In this document: in pieces, positions 13,256-38,099 of the stretch
Numbering within the stretch: position 1 is the first letter of the stretch
How the letters are laid out: each line of letters opens with the position of its first letter
Made by a program: the position numbers and the translations under genes
Virus record (IMG/VR): IMGVR_UViG_3300032304_000454
Span: 1 to 38,159 of that record
Source of the DNA: a virus
DNA length: 38,159 nt
Strand: one strand, 5' to 3'
The notes under the pieces: generated by a model
What the model saw: the letters and a program-made list of their open reading frames with translations, nothing else
Told to the model about the DNA's origin: nothing
Databases searched by the model: none

Positions 13256-13846
13256 ATGACTGAACCGCTGATGCCTGATATTGACTGGGATGTCCCAATG
13301 CCTGCCTCTCTGGCCGAGGCAATGCCGGAGCTTTCTCCGAAAGAAGAGATCGAAATGCGGGCCCGCACCGTAAAGATGATCTCGGACCTCACAGGTAGAC
13401 CCCTAGAACCTACCGAAGAAAACCGCAGTCAAGCCCACGAGCTCATGGAGCAGGTCGTGGCAAACAAAACCCCACCCGATTTAACACAATACCCAAATGA
13501 GACTCTTGCCTATCTTGGCGGTATGGTGGCTATGTACAGCGGTATGGTTGTGCGTGACCTCGCTGATCTGAAGCTGTACGTTGTAAATAAACTACTGCAA
13601 GAATCTGAGCATCCAGACGGCAAAGTAAGGATGCAGGCACTTAAAGCGTTAGGTGAAGTTGATGGAGTTGATGCGTTTAAGAAACGCACCGAAGTCACAG
13701 TCAAGGCTCAGTCTATTGAAGAAGTGGAAAACGAGCTGGCAGAGACGCTAAACAAACTCAAACGCATCACAAGTCTGTCTCAACAGCCTGTGATGGATGT
13801 GCAAGCTAAGAGAATTGATAAGTTGCCTGATGAAACTGACGACTGA
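13256..13846 (+). CDS. Probable terminase small subunit
   Basis: 196-aa protein directly upstream of, and overlapping, the large terminase gene, which is the usual place for the DNA-recognition subunit of the packaging motor. The start MTEPLMPDIDWDVPMP at 13256 has AAAGGAG 13 nt upstream; a GTG further upstream is less likely. The protein is mostly helical with an acidic N-terminus and a charged C-terminal coiled-coil-like part (SIEEVENELAETLNKLKR). No family motif was seen, so the call rests on position and size. Confidence 0.6.
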   Translation: MTEPLMPDIDWDVPMPASLAEAMPELSPKEEIEMRARTVKMISDLTGRPLEPTEENRSQAHELMEQVVANKTPPDLTQYPNETLAYLGGMVAMYSGMVVRDLADLKLYVVNKLLQESEHPDGKVRMQALKALGEVDGVDAFKKRTEVTVKAQSIEEVENELAETLNKLKRITSLSQQPVMDVQAKRIDKLPDETDD

Positions 13847-15332
13847 ACACATTCAGGAGCTGGAGCAGGCCCTTCCGATGATGGCGGAGGACCAAAAACG
13901 CCGTACTTTGGAGCTTATCAAGACGTGGTATGCCCAAAAAGCGCAAGAAATGGGCAAGGACAACTTCCTAACCTTCATTGACCACGTGTATCCCGGCTAT
14001 AAAGTGGGTCCACACCACCGAAAACTAGCAAAAATCTTTGAAGAAATTGCTGCCGGTAAGAAAAAACGGGTGATTGTGAACATTGCACCCCGTCACGGCA
14101 AGTCAGAGATGATCAGTTACCTCGCACCAGCGTGGTTTTTGGGCAAATACCCACATAAAAAGATCATCATGTCCTCCCACACTGCCGATTTGGCGGTGAA
14201 CTTCGGTCGTAGGGTGCGAAATCTGGTGGGTTCGGACTCATACAAGGACATTTTTCCTCAAGTTGAGCTTCAGGCGGACTCAAAAAGCGCGTCTCGATGG
14301 GGTACCAACTTTCAGGGCGAGTATTTTGCGATCGGTGTTGGCGGCGCACTTGCTGGTCGCGGGGCTGACCTATTTATTATTGACGACCCCCACTCTGAAC
14401 AAGAAGCAAAAACTGGGCGTCCTGATGTTTTTCTCCCTGCTTGGGAGTGGTTTCAGTCTGGTCCTTTACAGCGTCTGATGCCGGGCGGCGCGATCATTAT
14501 TGTGATGACTCGGTGGTCTAAGCTGGACCTGACGGGCATGGTGATCAACCAGATGATCAGGGAGCCAGACGTAGAGCCTTGGGAGGTCGTAGAGTTTCCT
14601 GCAATTTTGAACGACAAACCGTTGTGGGGCGACTTTTGGTCGCTTGAAGAGCTTTTGTCTAAGAAAGCGGGCATGGACCCACGGTATTGGCAAGCCCAAT
14701 ACATGCAAAACCCAGTGTCTCAAGAAGGGGCGCTTATTAAGCGTGAGTGGTGGCAGATTTGGGACAAGGAATACCCCCCAGATTGCGAGTTCACCATCAT
14801 GTCTTTGGACGCTGCGCAGGAAGCAAACAACCGCTCAGATTACAACGCGCTTACAACGTGGGGTGTGTTCTTCAACGAGGAAACTAACAATTTCAACATT
14901 ATTTTGTTGAACGCTATCAAGAAGCGTTTAGAGTTTCCTGAGCTCAAGAAGCTTGTGCTGGAAGAGTACAGAGAGTGGGAGCCAGACGCGTTCGTGGTGG
15001 AGAAGAAGTCTAACGGTTCGGCGCTCTATCAGGAGCTGCGACGGATGGGCGTGCCTGTGGGGGAGTTTACTCCGGGCAAAGGACAGGACAAAATAGCGCG
15101 TGTGAATTCTGTGTCTGACCTTTTTGCCTCTGGCATAGTGTGGGCACCGGATCGCAGGTGGGCAAAGGAAGTAATGGAAGAGTGTAACGACTTTCCCAGC
15201 GGTACAAACGACGACCTTGTTGACTCCACGACACAAGCGCTGCTGCGGTTTAGGCAGGGCGGTTTCATCACACTTGATACTGATGAAAAAGAAGACCGCG
15301 TTTTCACTCGCCGCAGGGCAGCATACTATTGA
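13830..15332 (+). CDS. Terminase large subunit
   Basis: Packaging ATPase-nuclease, 500 aa. ATPase: Walker A APRHGKSE at 86-93 and Walker B LFIIDDP at 181-187, with an MTRW coupling segment near 226-229. The RNase H-like nuclease has acidic residues in LDAAQ (Asp327), VVEKK (Glu391) and DDLVDS (Asp461, Asp462, Asp465). The start MKLTTEHIQELEQ at 13830 overlaps the small subunit; an upstream ATG at 13797 would lengthen the overlap. All key residues are present, so the motor looks functional. Confidence 0.95.
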   Translation: MKLTTEHIQELEQALPMMAEDQKRRTLELIKTWYAQKAQEMGKDNFLTFIDHVYPGYKVGPHHRKLAKIFEEIAAGKKKRVIVNIAPRHGKSEMISYLAPAWFLGKYPHKKIIMSSHTADLAVNFGRRVRNLVGSDSYKDIFPQVELQADSKSASRWGTNFQGEYFAIGVGGALAGRGADLFIIDDPHSEQEAKTGRPDVFLPAWEWFQSGPLQRLMPGGAIIIVMTRWSKLDLTGMVINQMIREPDVEPWEVVEFPAILNDKPLWGDFWSLEELLSKKAGMDPRYWQAQYMQNPVSQEGALIKREWWQIWDKEYPPDCEFTIMSLDAAQEANNRSDYNALTTWGVFFNEETNNFNIILLNAIKKRLEFPELKKLVLEEYREWEPDAFVVEKKSNGSALYQELRRMGVPVGEFTPGKGQDKIARVNSVSDLFASGIVWAPDRRWAKEVMEECNDFPSGTNDDLVDSTTQALLRFRQGGFITLDTDEKEDRVFTRRRAAYY

Positions 15333-28937: not shown

Positions 28938-31757
28938 ATGGCCATCGTTCTAAAAGATCGCGTCAAGGTTGCATCAGGCGTCACTGGCACTGGTACGGCA
29001 ACACTTGGTTCTGCCGCCGACGGCTTCCAAACATTTGCTGCAATCGGCGATGGCAACGAGACTTACTACACCATCGCGTTGCAGTCTGGCAACGAGTGGG
29101 AAGTGGGTAAGGGCACCGTAACGGATACTGCGGGTACTTTTACCCTGTCGCGTGATACCGTGTACGAGTCAAGCAACGCTGGCAACTTGGTCAATTTCTC
29201 TGCTGGCACCAAAGACGTGTTTGTTACATACCCTGCCGAGCGGGCCATTTACGAAGAGCCCGATGGCCAAACGCTGATTGACGGCGGACCCATTACAGTT
29301 CTTGGCGAAAATGTCGTTACAAACCCATCTTTGGAAGCTGAACTGGGCAAGTTCGTAGGTAACGTGAATTCGTTTGGTCAGGTGTACAACTTGAACCAAA
29401 GTAACGGTTCTTCGGCTTCCGCTGACTTTGTGGTGTACAACAACCAGACCACAGACGGTTTCACAAAATTCACCGACATGGGCATCAACAGCTCAAACTA
29501 CACGTCGGTGGACTACCCCATTTTTACGCCAAATTCCGGTTATGTATTTCATGACGGTGACGATTTCTTCATTGGAAACCAGACAGCCAACAAAGATGTA
29601 GTCCTGTTTGCAGGTGGCGCAGATACAACCAACGAAGCCATTCGCATCAAGGGCTCAGACCAAGACGTGGAGTTGGCCAACGGCCTGTCCGTGGCGGGTA
29701 CCGCGCTTATTACCGGAGCCGCTGAATTCCAGTCTACTGTGCTGTTGGATGCTGATCCAACTCTTGGTTTGCAAGCGGCAACTAAGCAGTATGTTGACTC
29801 GGCTGTATCGACTGGCTTTACGGTGCATCCATCGGTGGTGTACTCCACTGCCGCAGCACTTCCAGCCAACACTTACAACAACGGCACTGCTGGTGTTGGG
29901 GCCACACTGACTGCAAACGCTAACGGTGCGCTTTCTGTGGACGGCAACGTTGTTACCACCTCGCAGCGCATTTTGGTCAAAGATGAAGCCGCACAAGCCA
30001 ACAACGGCGCGTATGTTGTTACCCAGACAGGTAGCGCAGGCGCACCCTACATCTTGACTCGTGCGACCGACTTTGATACCGCTGGCACTGGCGAAATTAC
30101 CAACAATGCTTACTTCTTTACAACCGCAGGCGCAACAAACGCAGGTAGTTCGTTCATTTTGTCGCAGACTGCCGCCATCACGGTTGGTACGACTGCGTTG
30201 CCATTCACTCTGTTCAACGATCAATTGAACTATGTTGGCGGTACAAATATTGACATCACTGGTCTGACCATTTCTTTGACTGGAACCGTGGCGGCTACCA
30301 ACGGCGGTACAGGCACAGCAACAGTCACGACAGGCGACCTGCTGTACGGTTCTGGCACCAACACATGGGGCAAGCTGGCTGCGGGTGCCGGGTACAAGTC
30401 GCTGGTCATGAACGCTGGCGGCACCAACGTGGAGTGGAACGCGGTTGCTTTGAACCAATCTGGCGCTGTGTCTGGCACATTGCCGACAGGCAACGGCGGT
30501 ACAGGACTCACAACCTACACGCTGGGCGACATCATCTACTCGTCAGCCACCAACACGTTGGCTAAGCTGGCGGGTAACACCACCACAACCAAGACATTCT
30601 TGGTTCAAACTGGCGCAGGCGGCGGAGTTTCTGCGGCTCCTTCATGGGGCACCATCGCCGCTGCTGATGTTTCTGGCTTGGCCGCTTCGGCAACAACGGA
30701 TACCACCAATGCAGCAAACATCACATCAGGAACCCTCCCAGTTGCGCGGCTTAACGGCTCGTACACTGGTATTACTGGAGTTGGCACTCTCGCTGCTGGT
30801 ACTTGGAACGGCAGCGTTATTGCTGCTGTTTATGGTGGCACTGGCCAGTCTTCTTACACTCAGGGCGACTTGCTTTACGCGGCTTCGTCTACGACGATCG
30901 GAAAGTTGGCGGATGTAGCTGCCGGTAATGCGCTGATTTCTGGCGGCGTTGGCGCTGACCCTTCTTGGGGCAAGATTGGTCTGGCAACCCATATCAGTGG
31001 CACTTTGGCTGTGGCCAACGGTGGCACAGGCGCAACAGATGCGGCAACAGCTCGGGCAAACTTGGGCGCTGGTACAGGCAACGGCTCAGTCACTTCGGTG
31101 GTTGCGGGCACATACTTGACTGGCGGCACCATCACTACAACCGGCACTCTGGCTGTGGACGCCACAACCACAAACACGGCCTCTAAGGTTGTAGCTCGTG
31201 ACGCGTCTGGAAACTTCAGCGCGGGCACCATCACCGCCAACCTGACCGGCAACGTCACAGGTAACTTGACTGGCAACGTGACTGGGAACGCTTCCGGTTC
31301 TGCGGCTACCTTCACCAGCACTACACAAAACTCGCAGTTCAACTCTGTGGGCGTAGGCACGGCTGGCTCCACCACCGCAGGTGAAATCCGGGCAACCAAC
31401 AACATCACCGCCTACTACTCTTCGGACATCAAGTTCAAAGAAAACATCCAAGAGATCACCAGCGCCAGCAGCATTGTTCGTGCGATTGGCGGTAAATACT
31501 TCGACTGGACTGACGCTTACATCGCAGAGCACGGTGGTGCTGACGGCTACTTTGTCCAGAAGCAAGACTTCGGCGTGATTGCTCAGGATGTGCGGCGTGT
31601 TTTCCCTCGCGCAGTGCGTACACGTCCTGATGGCTCTTTGGCGGTGGACTACGAAAAGCTGGGGGTTCTGGCCTTCCCGGCACTGGTTGAGACGATGGAT
31701 CGACTGGACGCGCTTGAGGCTCTCGTGGCACAATTGGCAAAAGGCGACGCATCATGA
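28938..31757 (+). CDS. Tail fibre with C-terminal S74 chaperone
   Basis: 939-aa fibre. The N-terminal part (MAIVLKDRVKVASGVTGTGT, about 1-100) is a virion-anchoring domain. The long middle has repeated GGTG and TGN motifs typical of beta-helical or trimeric shafts. From about 828 it is an intramolecular chaperone (Peptidase S74): SSDIKFKENI gives Ser829 and Lys834, spaced like the self-cleaving Ser/Lys dyad. The chaperone trimerises the fibre and is then cut off. The gene ends in a coiled coil (DRLDALEALVAQL) and overlaps the next gene by ATGA. It probably recognises the host surface. Confidence 0.88.
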   Translation: MAIVLKDRVKVASGVTGTGTATLGSAADGFQTFAAIGDGNETYYTIALQSGNEWEVGKGTVTDTAGTFTLSRDTVYESSNAGNLVNFSAGTKDVFVTYPAERAIYEEPDGQTLIDGGPITVLGENVVTNPSLEAELGKFVGNVNSFGQVYNLNQSNGSSASADFVVYNNQTTDGFTKFTDMGINSSNYTSVDYPIFTPNSGYVFHDGDDFFIGNQTANKDVVLFAGGADTTNEAIRIKGSDQDVELANGLSVAGTALITGAAEFQSTVLLDADPTLGLQAATKQYVDSAVSTGFTVHPSVVYSTAAALPANTYNNGTAGVGATLTANANGALSVDGNVVTTSQRILVKDEAAQANNGAYVVTQTGSAGAPYILTRATDFDTAGTGEITNNAYFFTTAGATNAGSSFILSQTAAITVGTTALPFTLFNDQLNYVGGTNIDITGLTISLTGTVAATNGGTGTATVTTGDLLYGSGTNTWGKLAAGAGYKSLVMNAGGTNVEWNAVALNQSGAVSGTLPTGNGGTGLTTYTLGDIIYSSATNTLAKLAGNTTTTKTFLVQTGAGGGVSAAPSWGTIAAADVSGLAASATTDTTNAANITSGTLPVARLNGSYTGITGVGTLAAGTWNGSVIAAVYGGTGQSSYTQGDLLYAASSTTIGKLADVAAGNALISGGVGADPSWGKIGLATHISGTLAVANGGTGATDAATARANLGAGTGNGSVTSVVAGTYLTGGTITTTGTLAVDATTTNTASKVVARDASGNFSAGTITANLTGNVTGNLTGNVTGNASGSAATFTSTTQNSQFNSVGVGTAGSTTAGEIRATNNITAYYSSDIKFKENIQEITSASSIVRAIGGKYFDWTDAYIAEHGGADGYFVQKQDFGVIAQDVRRVFPRAVRTRPDGSLAVDYEKLGVLAFPALVETMDRLDALEALVAQLAKGDAS

Positions 31758-32524: not shown

Positions 32525-33385
32525 ATGCCACTACCAGCATCCGGCCCGATTTCATTCAACAACATCAACGTAGAGTTGGGTGTTGCGGGCACAACACAGG
32601 CTTCTTTGGGGCAGGCTTCTTATCGTGCGCTGGCGGGGGTTGCCTCTGGCCAAATCTCGATGAGCAACTTTTACGGTAAAGCCAACGAATTTACCTTTGC
32701 AATTGCCAGTAATCAAACTAACGCCAACTTGCGTACCCTTGCGGTCAATGCTGGGTGGAATCAGACTTCCAAGGTGGTTGCGACCATTAACTCCGGGGTC
32801 TACGTTAGCGCGAACTCCACAGGAACGCCGGGGCTTACAATTAACGGCTCTTTCCCAAATGGCGTGGAGCTGACTAATAACGGCTTCATTATCGGCATGG
32901 GGGGCGCTGGTGGCGGCGGCGGCGGTGTGACTGGTTTTGCGGGCGGAACCGCCCTTGCGGTGTCTATTCAGGTATCTATCAGAAACAACGGCACGGTAGG
33001 CGGTGGTGGTGGCGGTGGTGGCGCTGGCAACACCTACGACTCCTCTTACTGCGATAAAGGCGGCTGCTTCCCCGGCTCAACATACGGCGGTGGCGGTGGC
33101 GGTGGCGGGCGCACAGGTAGCACAAACTCCGCTGGTGGAGCTGGGCGAAATGCAACATATCCCGGCGGCGCGGGCGGGGCTGGTACGTCGGCCTCTGCGG
33201 GCGGTGGGGGTTCGCCCAACGGTAGCGGGGCACCATATGCAACTGCCGGGGCTTCGGGCGGAAACTGGGGCTCTGCCGGAGGAAGTGCTGCCGCTGGCGC
33301 GGGCGGCGCAGCTGGAGCGGCGGTCACCGGAAACGGCACTATCAATTGGTTAGCAACAGGTACTCGTTTAGGAGCAATTACATGA
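32525..33385 (+). CDS. Polyglycine-rich tail tip / receptor-binding protein
   Basis: 286 aa. The first 52 residues (MPLPASGPISFNNINVELGV through MSNFYGK) form an attachment domain typical of fibre-tip proteins. A beta section follows, then about 130 residues of Gly-rich runs (GGGGGG blocks separated by short loops). This looks like the polyglycine-II sandwich of gp38-type adhesins, whose variable loops contact the receptor. Receptor binding is inferred. ATGA overlap with the next gene. Confidence 0.78.
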   Translation: MPLPASGPISFNNINVELGVAGTTQASLGQASYRALAGVASGQISMSNFYGKANEFTFAIASNQTNANLRTLAVNAGWNQTSKVVATINSGVYVSANSTGTPGLTINGSFPNGVELTNNGFIIGMGGAGGGGGGVTGFAGGTALAVSIQVSIRNNGTVGGGGGGGGAGNTYDSSYCDKGGCFPGSTYGGGGGGGGRTGSTNSAGGAGRNATYPGGAGGAGTSASAGGGGSPNGSGAPYATAGASGGNWGSAGGSAAAGAGGAAGAAVTGNGTINWLATGTRLGAIT

Positions 33386-33960
33386 TCGGTTACAAATACG
33401 AAATCATCGCCGTTGATGAAGCGGCTCGCGTTATGGAAGTTGTTTATACCTCTCCGGGGCGTCAAACAATGCACATTGGGGTGCGGCTCCCTTCAGGCGA
33501 ACCTTTGCAGAACGTGATTGAGGCTTACGCCCCCGTGGCGTACTGGGCTGAGCAAGAGAAAAAAGTCACCTCCGTACAGGTCGGCACCTCTGGTGTTGTG
33601 GCTCCCGACATGTCACTTGCGGGGGTAAAAGCCCGCAAACTGCAGCAGTTAGCAGGGCATCGCTTTGAGATGGAGTGCCACGGAATTCGGTTTCACGACG
33701 AATATGTGAGCACGGACCGAAACGCACAATCGGCTATCGCTGCGGCGCAAGCCGCCGTTTCTGCTGGCACTTTGACCTCGGTTGGTTGGAAAACACGCGA
33801 GGGCCGTTGGCTTACTTTGGGCGCAACTGACATTACAGCTTTGGCTCAGGCAATAGCTGCGCATGTCCAAAACAGCTTTTCTCTGGAGCGTCAACTCGCA
33901 GAGCAAGTCAACAGCGCCACAACTGTGGAAGCCGTAGAGGCGATTGTATGGCCGGAGTAA
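33382..33960 (+). CDS. DUF4376 fibre-associated protein, 192 aa
   Basis: N-terminal part MIGYKYEIIAVDEAARVMEV, then a C-terminal domain (about 85-190) with the DUF4376 pattern: VKARKLQQLAGHRFE, TDRNAQSAIAAAQAA, VGWKTREGRWLTLGATDITA. This domain is commonly next to or part of phage fibre proteins, perhaps as an assembly or attachment part. Start at 33382 chosen for the ATGA overlap. It overlaps the ATP-grasp gene by 13 nt. Confidence 0.8.
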   Translation: MIGYKYEIIAVDEAARVMEVVYTSPGRQTMHIGVRLPSGEPLQNVIEAYAPVAYWAEQEKKVTSVQVGTSGVVAPDMSLAGVKARKLQQLAGHRFEMECHGIRFHDEYVSTDRNAQSAIAAAQAAVSAGTLTSVGWKTREGRWLTLGATDITALAQAIAAHVQNSFSLERQLAEQVNSATTVEAVEAIVWPE

Positions 33961-34838
33961 AACTCTATATGACGCTGGAAGACCAGCGCATGGGGATTGC
34001 TTCCTACCAGTCAACTCTGGCGCGTATTGGGGTGTCTATTACATCCATCCCATCCGAAGGCGTCTCGGTGCTGCCCCTTACCGACCGGGCCACACTTAAC
34101 ATGGTGGGCCATCAGGGCTTCATGCCTCAAGAATCCCTCGATAAGATTCTGAACAAGGACCGACTTCATGAGACTGGCCTTCCTACCTTGCCGACAACCG
34201 TAGTTGCCCTGCCGTATCTTGCGCCTCCGGGAACTTTTGTAAAGTCGCGCAACTCTGTTGTAGGTGGCTATGTGTACCAGCCGCAGATCGCGTTCCCACA
34301 TGAAGATTTAGATATTCATTTTTCAGTAAACGCTCAGGGGCGCGTTCATGTAATTGCCGCTCACCGACACCAGCATCTTGGTGGTAAAAAGCCCGGCACA
34401 CTGCGGATGGCGACTACTGAAGAGTGCGGCGACTTGGTTTCGCATATTGAGGCCGCGTGCCAAGCGTTGGAAATTAAAGGGGGCATGCACGACGTCGCTT
34501 TTCTTATGCACGAAGGTGTATGGAAGGCCATTGACTGGAACCCTAGAGCCCCGTTTCTTTACACTGATGGTGTAGCAGCGAAATACCCGTGCCTCGACGG
34601 CGCAATTGCGCACATGCTGGGTTTGCCTTTGCCGAACATCGCACCCGCCGTTTTTGTCAACCGGGCTTACTGGGATCGACCCATACCCCTGAATAAGCGG
34701 AGCGTGGTTGAGTCTTTTGGTTTGACACCTAGACGAGATGAGGGTCGCCAGATTGACGGCTTTGTTCGCGTAAACGGTGTTGGCGTTTCAGAAGCTGATG
34801 TAAACTCAAAGTTTGATGCAATGGAGGCTGCGCTGTGA
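33948..34838 (+). CDS. ATP-grasp-like enzyme, 296 aa
   Basis: Resembles ATP-grasp ligases, which join a carboxylate to an amine using ATP. Seen: a start like the central subdomain (SLDKILNKDRLHETGLPTLP), FVKSRNSVVGG with candidate nucleotide Lys99, an acidic EDLDIHFSVN segment near 119-128, and KGGMHDVAFLMHEGVWKAID followed by WNPRAP (Asp196, Asn198 as metal ligands). The N-terminal pre-ATP domain seems short. The substrate is unknown. It may modify a peptide, a surface sugar or amino acid, or a virion component. GTGA coupling to the next gene. An ATG at 33969 is an alternative start. Confidence 0.6.
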   Translation: MAGVKLYMTLEDQRMGIASYQSTLARIGVSITSIPSEGVSVLPLTDRATLNMVGHQGFMPQESLDKILNKDRLHETGLPTLPTTVVALPYLAPPGTFVKSRNSVVGGYVYQPQIAFPHEDLDIHFSVNAQGRVHVIAAHRHQHLGGKKPGTLRMATTEECGDLVSHIEAACQALEIKGGMHDVAFLMHEGVWKAIDWNPRAPFLYTDGVAAKYPCLDGAIAHMLGLPLPNIAPAVFVNRAYWDRPIPLNKRSVVESFGLTPRRDEGRQIDGFVRVNGVGVSEADVNSKFDAMEAAL

Positions 34839-35659
34839 AATTTCTTTTTGGGTTGTTGCTGTGGGTGTCGCTGAGTGTTTCTGCGAACCCTGTGAGTATT
34901 GTCACTACATCTGGTCCGGGGTCGCTTTCTGACCAAGTTGCACGGCACATTCAGCCGCTTCTGTCCAAAGAGCTGGGCGTTGAGGTTGTAGTTGTCAATG
35001 CTCCCGGCGCAAACGGCTTGGTGGGGCTTCGCGCTTTCCACCAGCTTGCTGGCAACCATTTGCTGATTGGCAGCTTTTCCGTGCCGTATGTGGCCAAAAC
35101 AACCCCACAAAAAGATTTTGATCCTCTGGTGGACTTCGCCCCAGTTATGGGTCTGACGCACACACCACTGAACATCACGGTGCCCGCAAACTCCCCAGCC
35201 AAAGACATGGCTTCTTTGGCAAAGCTGTCAAAAGAAAAGGGCGGGCTCAAAGGTGGAACATCCCACCCATCGACAAACATCTCGATGGCGCTCATCGACA
35301 AAGCTTTTGGTGCAACCACCGAGCCAATCAACTACAAGCAGACTGCGCAGCTTTACACCGAGCTGGCAGCAGGGCTTTTGGACTATACGGTTGGTGGCGG
35401 AAACCAAGCCTCAGTGGCTTTGGTGCAAAGCGGACATCTGCGCAATATAGCCCGTGCCGATCAAGTGGGCATCCCCGACTTTTCGTGGACGGCTCTTTTT
35501 GTTAAGTCGGGCAATGAAAACGGCCCTTTGGCAAATGCGGCGAAGCGAGCGATTAATGCCGACTCGATGCGCGGCTTGTCCCAGCCATTCTTCAAGGCTG
35601 ATGCTTCGGCAATGCGAGCTCAAGTGCAACGTGAGTACACCCTGATCCCCGCGCCATGA
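34835..35659 (+). CDS. TctC/Bug-type periplasmic solute-binding protein
   Basis: 274-aa secreted protein of the TctC/Bug family, extracytoplasmic receptors for carboxylates and related small molecules. Signal peptide MKFLFGLLLWVSLSVSA, cleavage after Ala17; no lipobox. Family blocks: SIVTTSGPGSLSDQVARHIQ (21-40), VVVVNAPGANGLVG (51-64), LLIGS, DFDPLVDFAPVMGLTHTPLN (94-113), GGTSHPSTNI (140-149), INYKQTAQLYTELAAGLLDY (165-184), SGHLRNIA (199-206). Typical members are about 320 aa, so this is compact. No transporter partners are in the window. It starts at a GTG overlapping the ATP-grasp stop. It is probably host-derived (Burkholderiales-type). Confidence 0.82.
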   Translation: MKFLFGLLLWVSLSVSANPVSIVTTSGPGSLSDQVARHIQPLLSKELGVEVVVVNAPGANGLVGLRAFHQLAGNHLLIGSFSVPYVAKTTPQKDFDPLVDFAPVMGLTHTPLNITVPANSPAKDMASLAKLSKEKGGLKGGTSHPSTNISMALIDKAFGATTEPINYKQTAQLYTELAAGLLDYTVGGGNQASVALVQSGHLRNIARADQVGIPDFSWTALFVKSGNENGPLANAAKRAINADSMRGLSQPFFKADASAMRAQVQREYTLIPAP

Positions 35660-36246
35660 CCGACCAAATCGCCCAACCAAGCCTTATGCGCAACCAAACT
35701 ATTTGTGAGGTTGAAGTTGATAACGGTCGAAAATTGCGGTTGTACGACAGTGTGTTTGATATGGCGTACCGATCAAAACTGTACCAATATATGCACGGCT
35801 CTTTTTTTAAAATTGGCTGGGCGGATGGGCTAACCCCAGAAAAAAGAGGGTATCAGTTTTTGCACTCCGGGCATTCGGAGGAAGATTTAAAGTCCGTTGG
35901 GCTTATTGAACACCTGCAGCAGACGCCAGTTGGCCAAGAGCTGGTGGGCTACACCCTAAATAAAGCGGTCTTAAATCTGTCGACACCAGCGGACGTTAAC
36001 TTTGTCCACACACATCCAGAGGACAAAGTGCTTCTGTACTACGTGAATTTGGATTGGGAAGACGGTTGGCACGGGGAGACTTTATTTTTTGACGAGTCCG
36101 CCAAGAACATCATGTTTGCCAGCGCTTACACGCCGGGGCGGATCATTGCTTTTGATGCAAAAATTCCGCACACCATACGCCCGCAGTCGCACATTGCCAC
36201 GTTTTACAGAATGACTTTTGCGTTGGTGCTTACGAAAAACCCATAA
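35656..36246 (+). CDS. 2-oxoglutarate/Fe(II) oxygenase-like protein
   Basis: 196 aa, cytoplasmic. The double-stranded beta-helix pattern is visible: VHTHPEDKVLLYYVNLDW, GWHGETLFFDES, YTPGRIIAFDAKIPHTIRP, FYRMT. Candidate iron ligands are His118 or His120 with Glu122/Asp123 and distal His172; Arg185 could bind 2-oxoglutarate. Such enzymes hydroxylate proteins, nucleic acids or small molecules. ATGA overlap with the binding-protein gene makes it part of the same cassette. Substrate unknown. Confidence 0.72.
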   Translation: MTDQIAQPSLMRNQTICEVEVDNGRKLRLYDSVFDMAYRSKLYQYMHGSFFKIGWADGLTPEKRGYQFLHSGHSEEDLKSVGLIEHLQQTPVGQELVGYTLNKAVLNLSTPADVNFVHTHPEDKVLLYYVNLDWEDGWHGETLFFDESAKNIMFASAYTPGRIIAFDAKIPHTIRPQSHIATFYRMTFALVLTKNP

Positions 36247-36275: not shown

Positions 36276-36380
36276 ATGAAAGACTGGGCCATAGCAATCA
36301 CTGCCGGAGTTCTTGTCTCATGCCTGTGCATGTGGGTGGCTTTTGACCTTGTTCCGATGCTGTGGTGGGTGATGAAATGA
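36276..36380 (+). CDS. Very small membrane protein, 34 aa
   Basis: MKDWAIAITAGVLVSCLCMW followed by VAFDLVPMLWWVMK, one hydrophobic span. GGGGGTGGG lies upstream and its stop overlaps the next start (ATGA). Possibly a lysis helper such as a small pinholin or antiholin (inference). Confidence 0.62.
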   Translation: MKDWAIAITAGVLVSCLCMWVAFDLVPMLWWVMK

Positions 36381-37071: not shown

Positions 37072-37596
37072 ATGCTGTCTTTAATTTCTACCCTCGGTGG
37101 CCTGCTGATTTCAGGCTTGCCCAAACTGCTGGACTACTTCCAGAACAAGGCTGACCAAAAGCACGAGCTGGCTTTGGCCCAAGTGCAGACCGAGCGCGAA
37201 TTGGCTTTGGCTGCTGCTGGTTTTGCTGCTCAGGCCAAGATCGAAGAAATCCGCACCGAGCAGGTGGCAATGCAGACCAACGCGCAGATTGCTGAAGCAG
37301 AAGCTGCGATGACCCAAGGCGCTCAAGAGCACGACAAGGCGGTTCTCGCCAAGGCATCCACATGGGTTGCCAACTACATCGGCACCGTGCGCCCGACCAT
37401 CACCTACATCTTTGTCATTGAGTTGGTGCTGGTTAACGCATGGTTGGCTTGGTATGTCTGGTACAACGAGAAGCTGATTACAAACCTTGAGGAATTGGTG
37501 CGCTTTAGCGACATCATCTTCAGCACTGACGAGATGGCCATGCTGGGCGGCATCATCGGTTTCTGGTTCGGTTCGCGCGGCTGGAGCAAGAAGTGA
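37072..37596 (+). CDS. Holin (GTA-type 3TM-like)
   Basis: 174 aa. An N-terminal hydrophobic segment (MLSLISTLGGLLISGLPKLL), a long charged helix (about 25-90), two more hydrophobic spans (TYIFVIELVLVNAWLAWYVW; AMLGGIIGFWFGSRGW) and a basic end. This matches the three-span holin family known from gene transfer agents. It would permeabilise the inner membrane to release the endolysin encoded next. GTGA overlap with that gene. Confidence 0.82.
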   Translation: MLSLISTLGGLLISGLPKLLDYFQNKADQKHELALAQVQTERELALAAAGFAAQAKIEEIRTEQVAMQTNAQIAEAEAAMTQGAQEHDKAVLAKASTWVANYIGTVRPTITYIFVIELVLVNAWLAWYVWYNEKLITNLEELVRFSDIIFSTDEMAMLGGIIGFWFGSRGWSKK

Positions 37597-38099
37597 AGCT
37601 CTCCAAAGCTGGCGCAGATTTGATGCACCGCTTTGAGGGGTGCAGAAACAAGCCGTACCTTTGCCCCGCGCACATCTGGACGATTGGGTACGGCCATGTG
37701 CTGTACCAAGAGCAGATCAAGCTGCCGATGGCGCGGGTCGAGGGTAAAGAAGTTGCCATGATCCGCAAAGAGATGCCGCTTAAACCGGAGGACAACCGTG
37801 TCTGGAGCAAAGAGGAAATCGAGAAACTATTCGCTGATGACGTCGCGTCTTTTGAACGTGGTGTTCTACGACTTGTTCCCGGCGTTGCTGGCAGGCAAGG
37901 CGCTTTTGACGCTCTTGTCTCTATCTCCTTTAACTTTGGACTAGGCAACCTGCAGCGCTCGACCATTCGCATGAAAGCCAACCGGGGTGACTGGGAAGGT
38001 GCGGCGCAGGCTTTTATGGCTTGGACCAAGGGCGGTGGCAAAGTTTTGCCCGGACTGGTGAAGCGCCGGGAAGCAGAGATTGCGCTGTTCCTGAGTTAA
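37593..38099 (+). CDS. Endolysin, GH24 lysozyme
   Basis: 168-aa phage lysozyme that cuts peptidoglycan between MurNAc and GlcNAc. The catalytic region is FEGCRNKPYLCPAHIWTIGY: Glu15, then Cys24 at the position of the usual Asp, and Thr30. Spacing equals T4 lysozyme Glu11/Asp20/Thr26. A Cys at this site is known to keep activity in T4 lysozyme. Later blocks AFDALVSISFNFGLGNL and GLVKRREAEIALFL are standard. No signal peptide, so it depends on the holin. GTG start. Confidence 0.92.
   Translation: MKLSKAGADLMHRFEGCRNKPYLCPAHIWTIGYGHVLYQEQIKLPMARVEGKEVAMIRKEMPLKPEDNRVWSKEEIEKLFADDVASFERGVLRLVPGVAGRQGAFDALVSISFNFGLGNLQRSTIRMKANRGDWEGAAQAFMAWTKGGGKVLPGLVKRREAEIALFLS

Follow-up and report, generated by a model that had tools for sequence, protein, structure and literature searches.

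What use could a tailed phage have for a putatively periplasmic solute receptor when the membrane partners of that receptor family are not encoded with it? The question is raised by an open reading frame (ORF) in the IMG/VR record IMGVR_UViG_3300032304_000454, whose 38,159 nt were analyzed at full length and are called the window here. A first-pass annotation had read this ORF as a compact TctC/Bug solute receptor with a Sec signal, carried by a phage without its transporter and next to enzyme genes. As possible roles it had offered supply to a host transporter, action as a decoy or sensor ligand carrier, and binding of a compound made by the enzyme neighbors. It had also proposed a phylogeny to find the donor among the Burkholderiales as well as an inspection of the ligand loops.

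Identity and setting of the receptor gene

The ORF encodes a member of the TctC/Bug solute-receptor family, as the first-pass annotation had it. It scored 49.8 bits (E 4.4e-13) against the Pfam TctC profile, for which the gathering cut-off is 27, and its relatives in other viral contigs reached 64-65 bits. Residues 35-207 (of 274) align to positions 1-177 of the profile, of which positions 178-274 are left uncovered. A PDB sequence search with the receptor returned Bug27, BugD, TphC, and MatC, with Bug27 as the best match (E 6.5e-13 using a five-row receptor profile). Each of the top 16 Foldseek matches was a TctC/Bug structure, although the model used was of low confidence (pLDDT 55.6); VIA-align ranked BugD first (Z 9.3, 3.7 A, 138 residues). 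With this pLDDT and a whole-chain rmsd of about 15 A, the two-lobed arrangement is a putative one. The term compact is likewise justified, as the receptor counts 274 aa compared with 302-348 aa across 40 bacterial relatives.

The receptor is probably exported via Sec. Its N-terminus, read by inspection, carries a lysine in the n-region and small residues at -3/-1 and has no lipobox cysteine; the hydrophobic core has a mean Kyte-Doolittle value of 2.4 over 11 residues. In the window the signal reads MKFLFGLLLWVSLSVSA followed by NP and in the relatives MKRFLLALALISTNVFA followed by ST, and in one of these relatives (L002) the pattern is kept despite diverged letters. The Sec signal claimed earlier is thus recognizable, as judged by inspection and hydropathy, both here and in the relatives.

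The contig is that of a tailed phage, which agrees with the earlier reading: a large terminase, portal, major capsid, GroES-like protein, tail fibers, and endolysin are encoded together with the receptor. The receptor gene lies in the late region, with tail-fiber genes before it and the lysis block after it (Table 1). It overlaps its neighbors by 4 bases at both ends (GTGA with the upstream 296-aa gene and ATGA with the downstream oxygenase gene). A promoter scan found none, and shuffled sequences gave more.

Further upstream, at positions 28938-31757 (+), a 939-aa tail-fiber-type protein with many repeats is encoded, which ends in a Peptidase_S74 intramolecular chaperone. Downstream of the cassette, a 34-codon ORF (36276-36380, +) follows an AGGGGG-type ribosome site and contains a single hydrophobic stretch, MKDWAIAITAGVLVSCLCMWVAFDLVPMLWWVMK; it may encode a small membrane protein that belongs to the lysis block.

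Table 1. Features of the receptor locus and its surroundings in the window.
Feature	Position	Strand	Basis
Glycine-rich distal tail-fiber adhesin	32525..33385	+	Pfam GP38 25.9 bits; phrog tail fiber/host specificity
Tail-fiber-type protein, C-terminal DUF4376	33346..33960	+	Pfam DUF4376 65 bits; phrog_10508 tail fiber 95 bits
Likely ATP-grasp-like ligase, 296 aa, strict upstream partner	33948..34838	+	Foldseek, VIA-align
TctC/Bug-family solute receptor, 274 aa, GTG start	34835..35659	+	Pfam TctC, PDB sequence matches, Foldseek
Probable Sec signal peptide MKFLFGLLLWVSLSVSA, cleavage before NP	34835..34885	+	By inspection
First ligand loop TSGPGSLSD, counterpart of P-F-X-A-G-G-X-X-D	34907..34933	+	Alignment with 40 bacterial relatives
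2OG-Fe(II) oxygenase, 196 aa, optional neighbor	35656..36246	+	NCBIfam, phrog_274
Endolysin (phage lysozyme), lysis block downstream of cassette	37593..38099	+	Pfam Phage_lysozyme 128.8 bits

Selection, ligand loops, and origin

Four other viral contigs, retrieved by scans of IMG/VR, encode relatives that share 63-64% identity with the receptor, and each of the five proteins comprises 274 aa without stops. The receptor genes of three of these four contigs (L002, L005, and L006) show 94-95% pairwise DNA identity and differ by 4-5 amino-acid-changing versus 38-47 silent substitutions, corresponding to a dN/dS of about 0.03; the receptor region of the fourth (L007) is identical to that of L002. 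Between the window and the other contigs silent sites are saturated, and the dN/dS value is that of L002, L005, and L006 only. It points to purifying selection on the receptor gene. The four further contigs and the low dN/dS show that the ORF does not owe its existence to chance, and the divergence of the relatives, taken together with this ratio, indicates that selection has long maintained the gene in phages, where it is thus no recent stray.

In the TctC/Bug family, the P-F-X-A-G-G-X-X-D signature holds two waters and the proximal carboxylate of the ligand, and hydroxyl substitutions occur within the family (PMC5812351). The proposed inspection of the ligand loops gave a mixed outcome. G29, D33, R37, and G58, which are invariant in 40 of 40 bacterial relatives, are retained in the receptor, but T25 and S26 have taken the place of the P-F in the signature and the second loop is altered, with H144 where 36 of the 40 relatives have G and N148 where 34 have H. 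The second G of the signature is replaced by S, which is also found in 16 of the 40 relatives. Compared with the same set, the C-terminal half is short: about 14 residues are absent beyond position 206, and a further gap of about 11 lies near position 253. With P-F, the second loop, and some 14 residues in the C-terminal half altered or absent, a non-standard ligand is probable. The receptor thus presumably binds a ligand, and an unusual one, which the loops alone do not name.

The best matches to the receptor among plasmid-borne bacterial proteins (Cupriavidus, Polaromonas) share about 33% identity, and no closer bacterial relative was found. No receptor match was found in 399 Burkholderiales genomes at E<=1e-27 or in 398 genomes of the phylum at E<=1e-25; scoring in both scans was confined to a few top candidates from each genome, which is why they are not proof of absence. 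A genome-contig scan with the phage pair confirmed no relative. In a tree of 49 proteins the phage receptors group into a single clade, whose stem measures about 2.5 changes per column and joins another long row (Azospirillum plasmid, 86/60) at a junction flagged as possibly false. With such a long stem and no close bacterial relative, the tree and the scans did not resolve the Burkholderiales donor that had been sought. As to the host, the nearest terminases are those of DSL-LC04, the marine phage 023Pt_psg01, and the Pelagibacter phages HTVC023P/027P, whose 47-52% identity is too distant to name a host; the host of DSL-LC04 is given as Gammaproteobacteria. A search for tRNAs as a host clue returned none.

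Missing transporter and gene partners

Profile searches for TctA and TctB returned no match in the window and the related contigs (six contigs including a 66-kb relative, G003), and a complete TctCBA transporter is absent from these six, as the first-pass annotation had claimed for the window. The gene order of G003 runs from lysis genes through replication genes, terminase, and structural genes to lysis again, and the contig therefore probably spans a genome. Most bacterial Bug genes are orphans as well, with few membrane partners serving them (PMC5812351, PMC5994714).

Both ends of G003 (L083, 1-6600, and L086, 62445-66410) carry versions of the lysis genes and the genes following them, but the endolysins differ between the ends. 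Two strain variants may have been joined in this contig, or it may consist of a genome unit plus a divergent repeat.

The strict partner of the receptor gene is the 296-aa gene directly upstream, which occupies this position in five of five contigs (58-59% identity); a separate scan with its product returned only the five receptor contigs. Its product is likely an ATP-grasp-like ligase, as suggested by a poor structural model (pLDDT 39.8). With this model, the best Foldseek matches were a CPS-type ATP-grasp protein, D-Ala-D-Ala ligase, L-amino-acid ligase, PurK, and RimK, and 49 of 50 VIA-align rows belonged to the ATP-grasp superfamily (Z up to 7.8, residues 116-196). By eye, the protein displays the ATP-grasp-like pattern NKDRLHETGLPTLP...GGMHDVAF...AIDWNPR. 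It matched nothing in Pfam, nor did it match D-Ala-D-Ala ligases when profiles were compared.

The oxygenase gene follows the receptor gene in three of the five contigs, and another gene takes its place in L005 and L006. Its product scored 53.9 bits against the FlmC-type 2OG-Fe profile of NCBIfam, which is under the cut-off of 240 for that profile, and 43 bits against phrog_274. At eleven viral loci a 64-71% identical oxygenase is encoded with no receptor gene adjoining, mostly behind tail-fiber-type genes, and no TctC was found in the four of these eleven contigs that were searched whole. From this distribution it follows that the slot behind the distal fiber is a variable enzyme cassette, in which the receptor gene and the ATP-grasp-like gene form a linked unit within one operon. 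Enzyme neighbors, to which the first-pass annotation had referred, are thus present; it had not singled out the ATP-grasp-like gene, and the 2OG oxygenase is optional.

Around the oxygenase genes of other phages (L010-L020), the slot behind the distal tail fiber carries sets of small enzyme-like genes, the 2OG oxygenase among others, which suggests a general tail-fiber-linked enzyme cassette, perhaps for fiber modification.

Proposed role and comparison with known systems

We see a roughly even chance that the receptor is an orphan auxiliary uptake receptor, kept by a lineage of uncultured tailed phages and feeding a permease of the host in a PstS-like manner. As part of the late gene cluster, it would be made late in infection, coupled to the gene of the ATP-grasp-like ligase, and would be exported by Sec to the periplasm. 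There its two lobes would enclose an acidic small molecule (a carboxylate or similar), which the receptor would pass to a host membrane transporter, either of the TctAB type or another permease. This would raise the supply of the captured compound in the infected cell, as PstS may do for phosphate in cyanophages, and might benefit the phage. The coupling of the genes suggests, more weakly, that the captured carboxylate may be a substrate of the ligase. Since the phages carry no transporter for the receptor, it probably works with uptake systems of the host. The missing pieces of the C-terminal half, the loss of P-F, and the changed second loop would count against a role in uptake. Docking to a host TctAB is doubtful because the clade is very divergent and no close host-like homolog of it was found, unlike cyanophage PstS, which groups with host proteins.

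The main rival to an auxiliary uptake receptor, although an unlikely one, is that the receptor and the ATP-grasp-like ligase, with the oxygenase as an optional member, belong to one pathway, in which the enzymes make or consume an acidic amide-type compound and the receptor collects or holds it in the periplasm instead of serving general nutrition. This would agree with the presence of the gene pair in all five contigs and its 4-base overlap, even where the oxygenase is missing, and with the atypical ligand loops of the receptor. Furthermore, ATP-grasp enzymes activate carboxylates. Carboxylates are also what TctC proteins usually bind (PMC5812351). However, the enzymes have no export signals and would therefore be cytoplasmic, so that a transporter would be needed to bring the product and the receptor into the same compartment; the ATP-grasp assignment, moreover, stems from a low-confidence model and is set against the negative profile comparison. 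That the solute is caught in the periplasm, imported by a host permease, and joined to another molecule by the phage ligase (with the 2OG oxygenase where present) is unlikely; if true, it would constitute a phage metabolic route built around a secondary-transporter receptor.

Other readings move away from supply and metabolism. The strong divergence, the shortened C-terminal half, and the altered loops might reflect reuse of the fold beyond small-molecule capture, for example as a periplasmic superinfection-exclusion or lysis-timing factor, which would also suit the probable export signal and the position of the gene just upstream of the lysis block. We consider this quite unlikely in view of the retained family-invariant loop residues, the strong purifying selection, and a partner that is an enzyme-like gene and no lysis gene. 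TctC proteins can signal besides transporting, as exemplified by BctC (PMC5812351), and most Bug proteins are orphans without an assigned role; the receptor might hence be a ligand carrier for sensing by a host two-component system (like BctC with BctDE) or a decoy that sequesters the solute. Such a function appears decidedly unlikely, given that the cassette encodes no regulator, that the loss of segments and the divergence disfavor docking to a particular host kinase, and that a position in the late region implies poor timing for host reprogramming. It is very improbable that the protein is a tail part of the virion: its gene closely follows the tail-fiber genes, but an export signal would remove the protein from the cytoplasm, where virions are assembled, TctC is a family of soluble receptors, and varied enzyme-like genes fill the same slot in other phages.

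Returning to the auxiliary uptake receptor, the phage protein would raise the question that has long surrounded the many orphan Bug proteins, namely if a receptor of foreign origin is accepted by a host TctAB. The strict pairing of the receptor and ligase genes, in turn, makes for a testable pathway.

Named phage collections rarely contain TctC/Bug receptors, but the receptor of the window is not unique. As a query against 50,697 named phage records it found no match, and the sole match of three other TctC queries in these records was an UNVERIFIED, unannotated fecal scaffold. BFVD, on the other hand, contains four proteins of uncultured Caudovirales phages that are named Bug, and the 337-kb T4-type jumbo phage contig IMGVR_UViG_3300023174_005338 (L003) encodes five TctC genes (G001:C1:126269, 161073, 207449, 212434, and 275332) and one DctP along with a T4-type capsid gene (Gp23, E 1e-97). 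Within the library searched, no paper on TctC/Bug receptors in phages was found; one tctA domain match has been reported for SUP05 viral contigs (PMC4164917).

The fecal scaffold ('Bacteriophage sp.', MT836965.1) encodes its TctC protein at 13555-14394 (L102) with no annotation and may be bacterial. In the jumbo contig, a Rieske-type oxygenase, a nitronate-monooxygenase-like protein, and a 2OG oxygenase-like gene were recognized by inspection among the neighbors of the receptor genes.

Like the window, the jumbo contig and the four BFVD proteins represent TctC/Bug receptors in tailed phages, and a search of the jumbo contig for TctA and TctB likewise found none. These receptors differ from that of the window in approaching full length more closely (296-332 aa for those of the jumbo contig) and in falling outside the window clade on the tree; those of the jumbo contig also have different neighbor genes. 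Bacterial TctC/Bug proteins such as BugD, Bug27, TphC, and MatC are receptors of tripartite tricarboxylate transporters (TTT). The receptor of the window shares their profile, the residues G29, D33, R37, and G58, and the export signal, and its orphan state is common to most bacterial Bug genes. In contrast to them, it is phage-borne, shorter, devoid of P-F, changed in the second loop, and overlapping with an ATP-grasp-like gene.

The closest functional parallel to an auxiliary uptake receptor is provided by cyanophages, which carry PstS; phages without pstS lysed late under low phosphate (PMC10976474). PstS binds phosphate and serves an ABC transporter, whereas the receptor of the window belongs to the secondary TTT family and an unrelated solute class, and cyanophage PstS clusters with host PstS, whereas the window clade clusters closely with no sampled bacterium. 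Uptake-boosting phage genes are best known from PstS and phosphate, and a phage TctC/Bug receptor would extend them to carboxylate-type solutes and secondary transporters. Both systems have in common that a lone periplasmic receptor is encoded by the phage without a permease, which in cyanophages, lacking PstABC, is left to the host.
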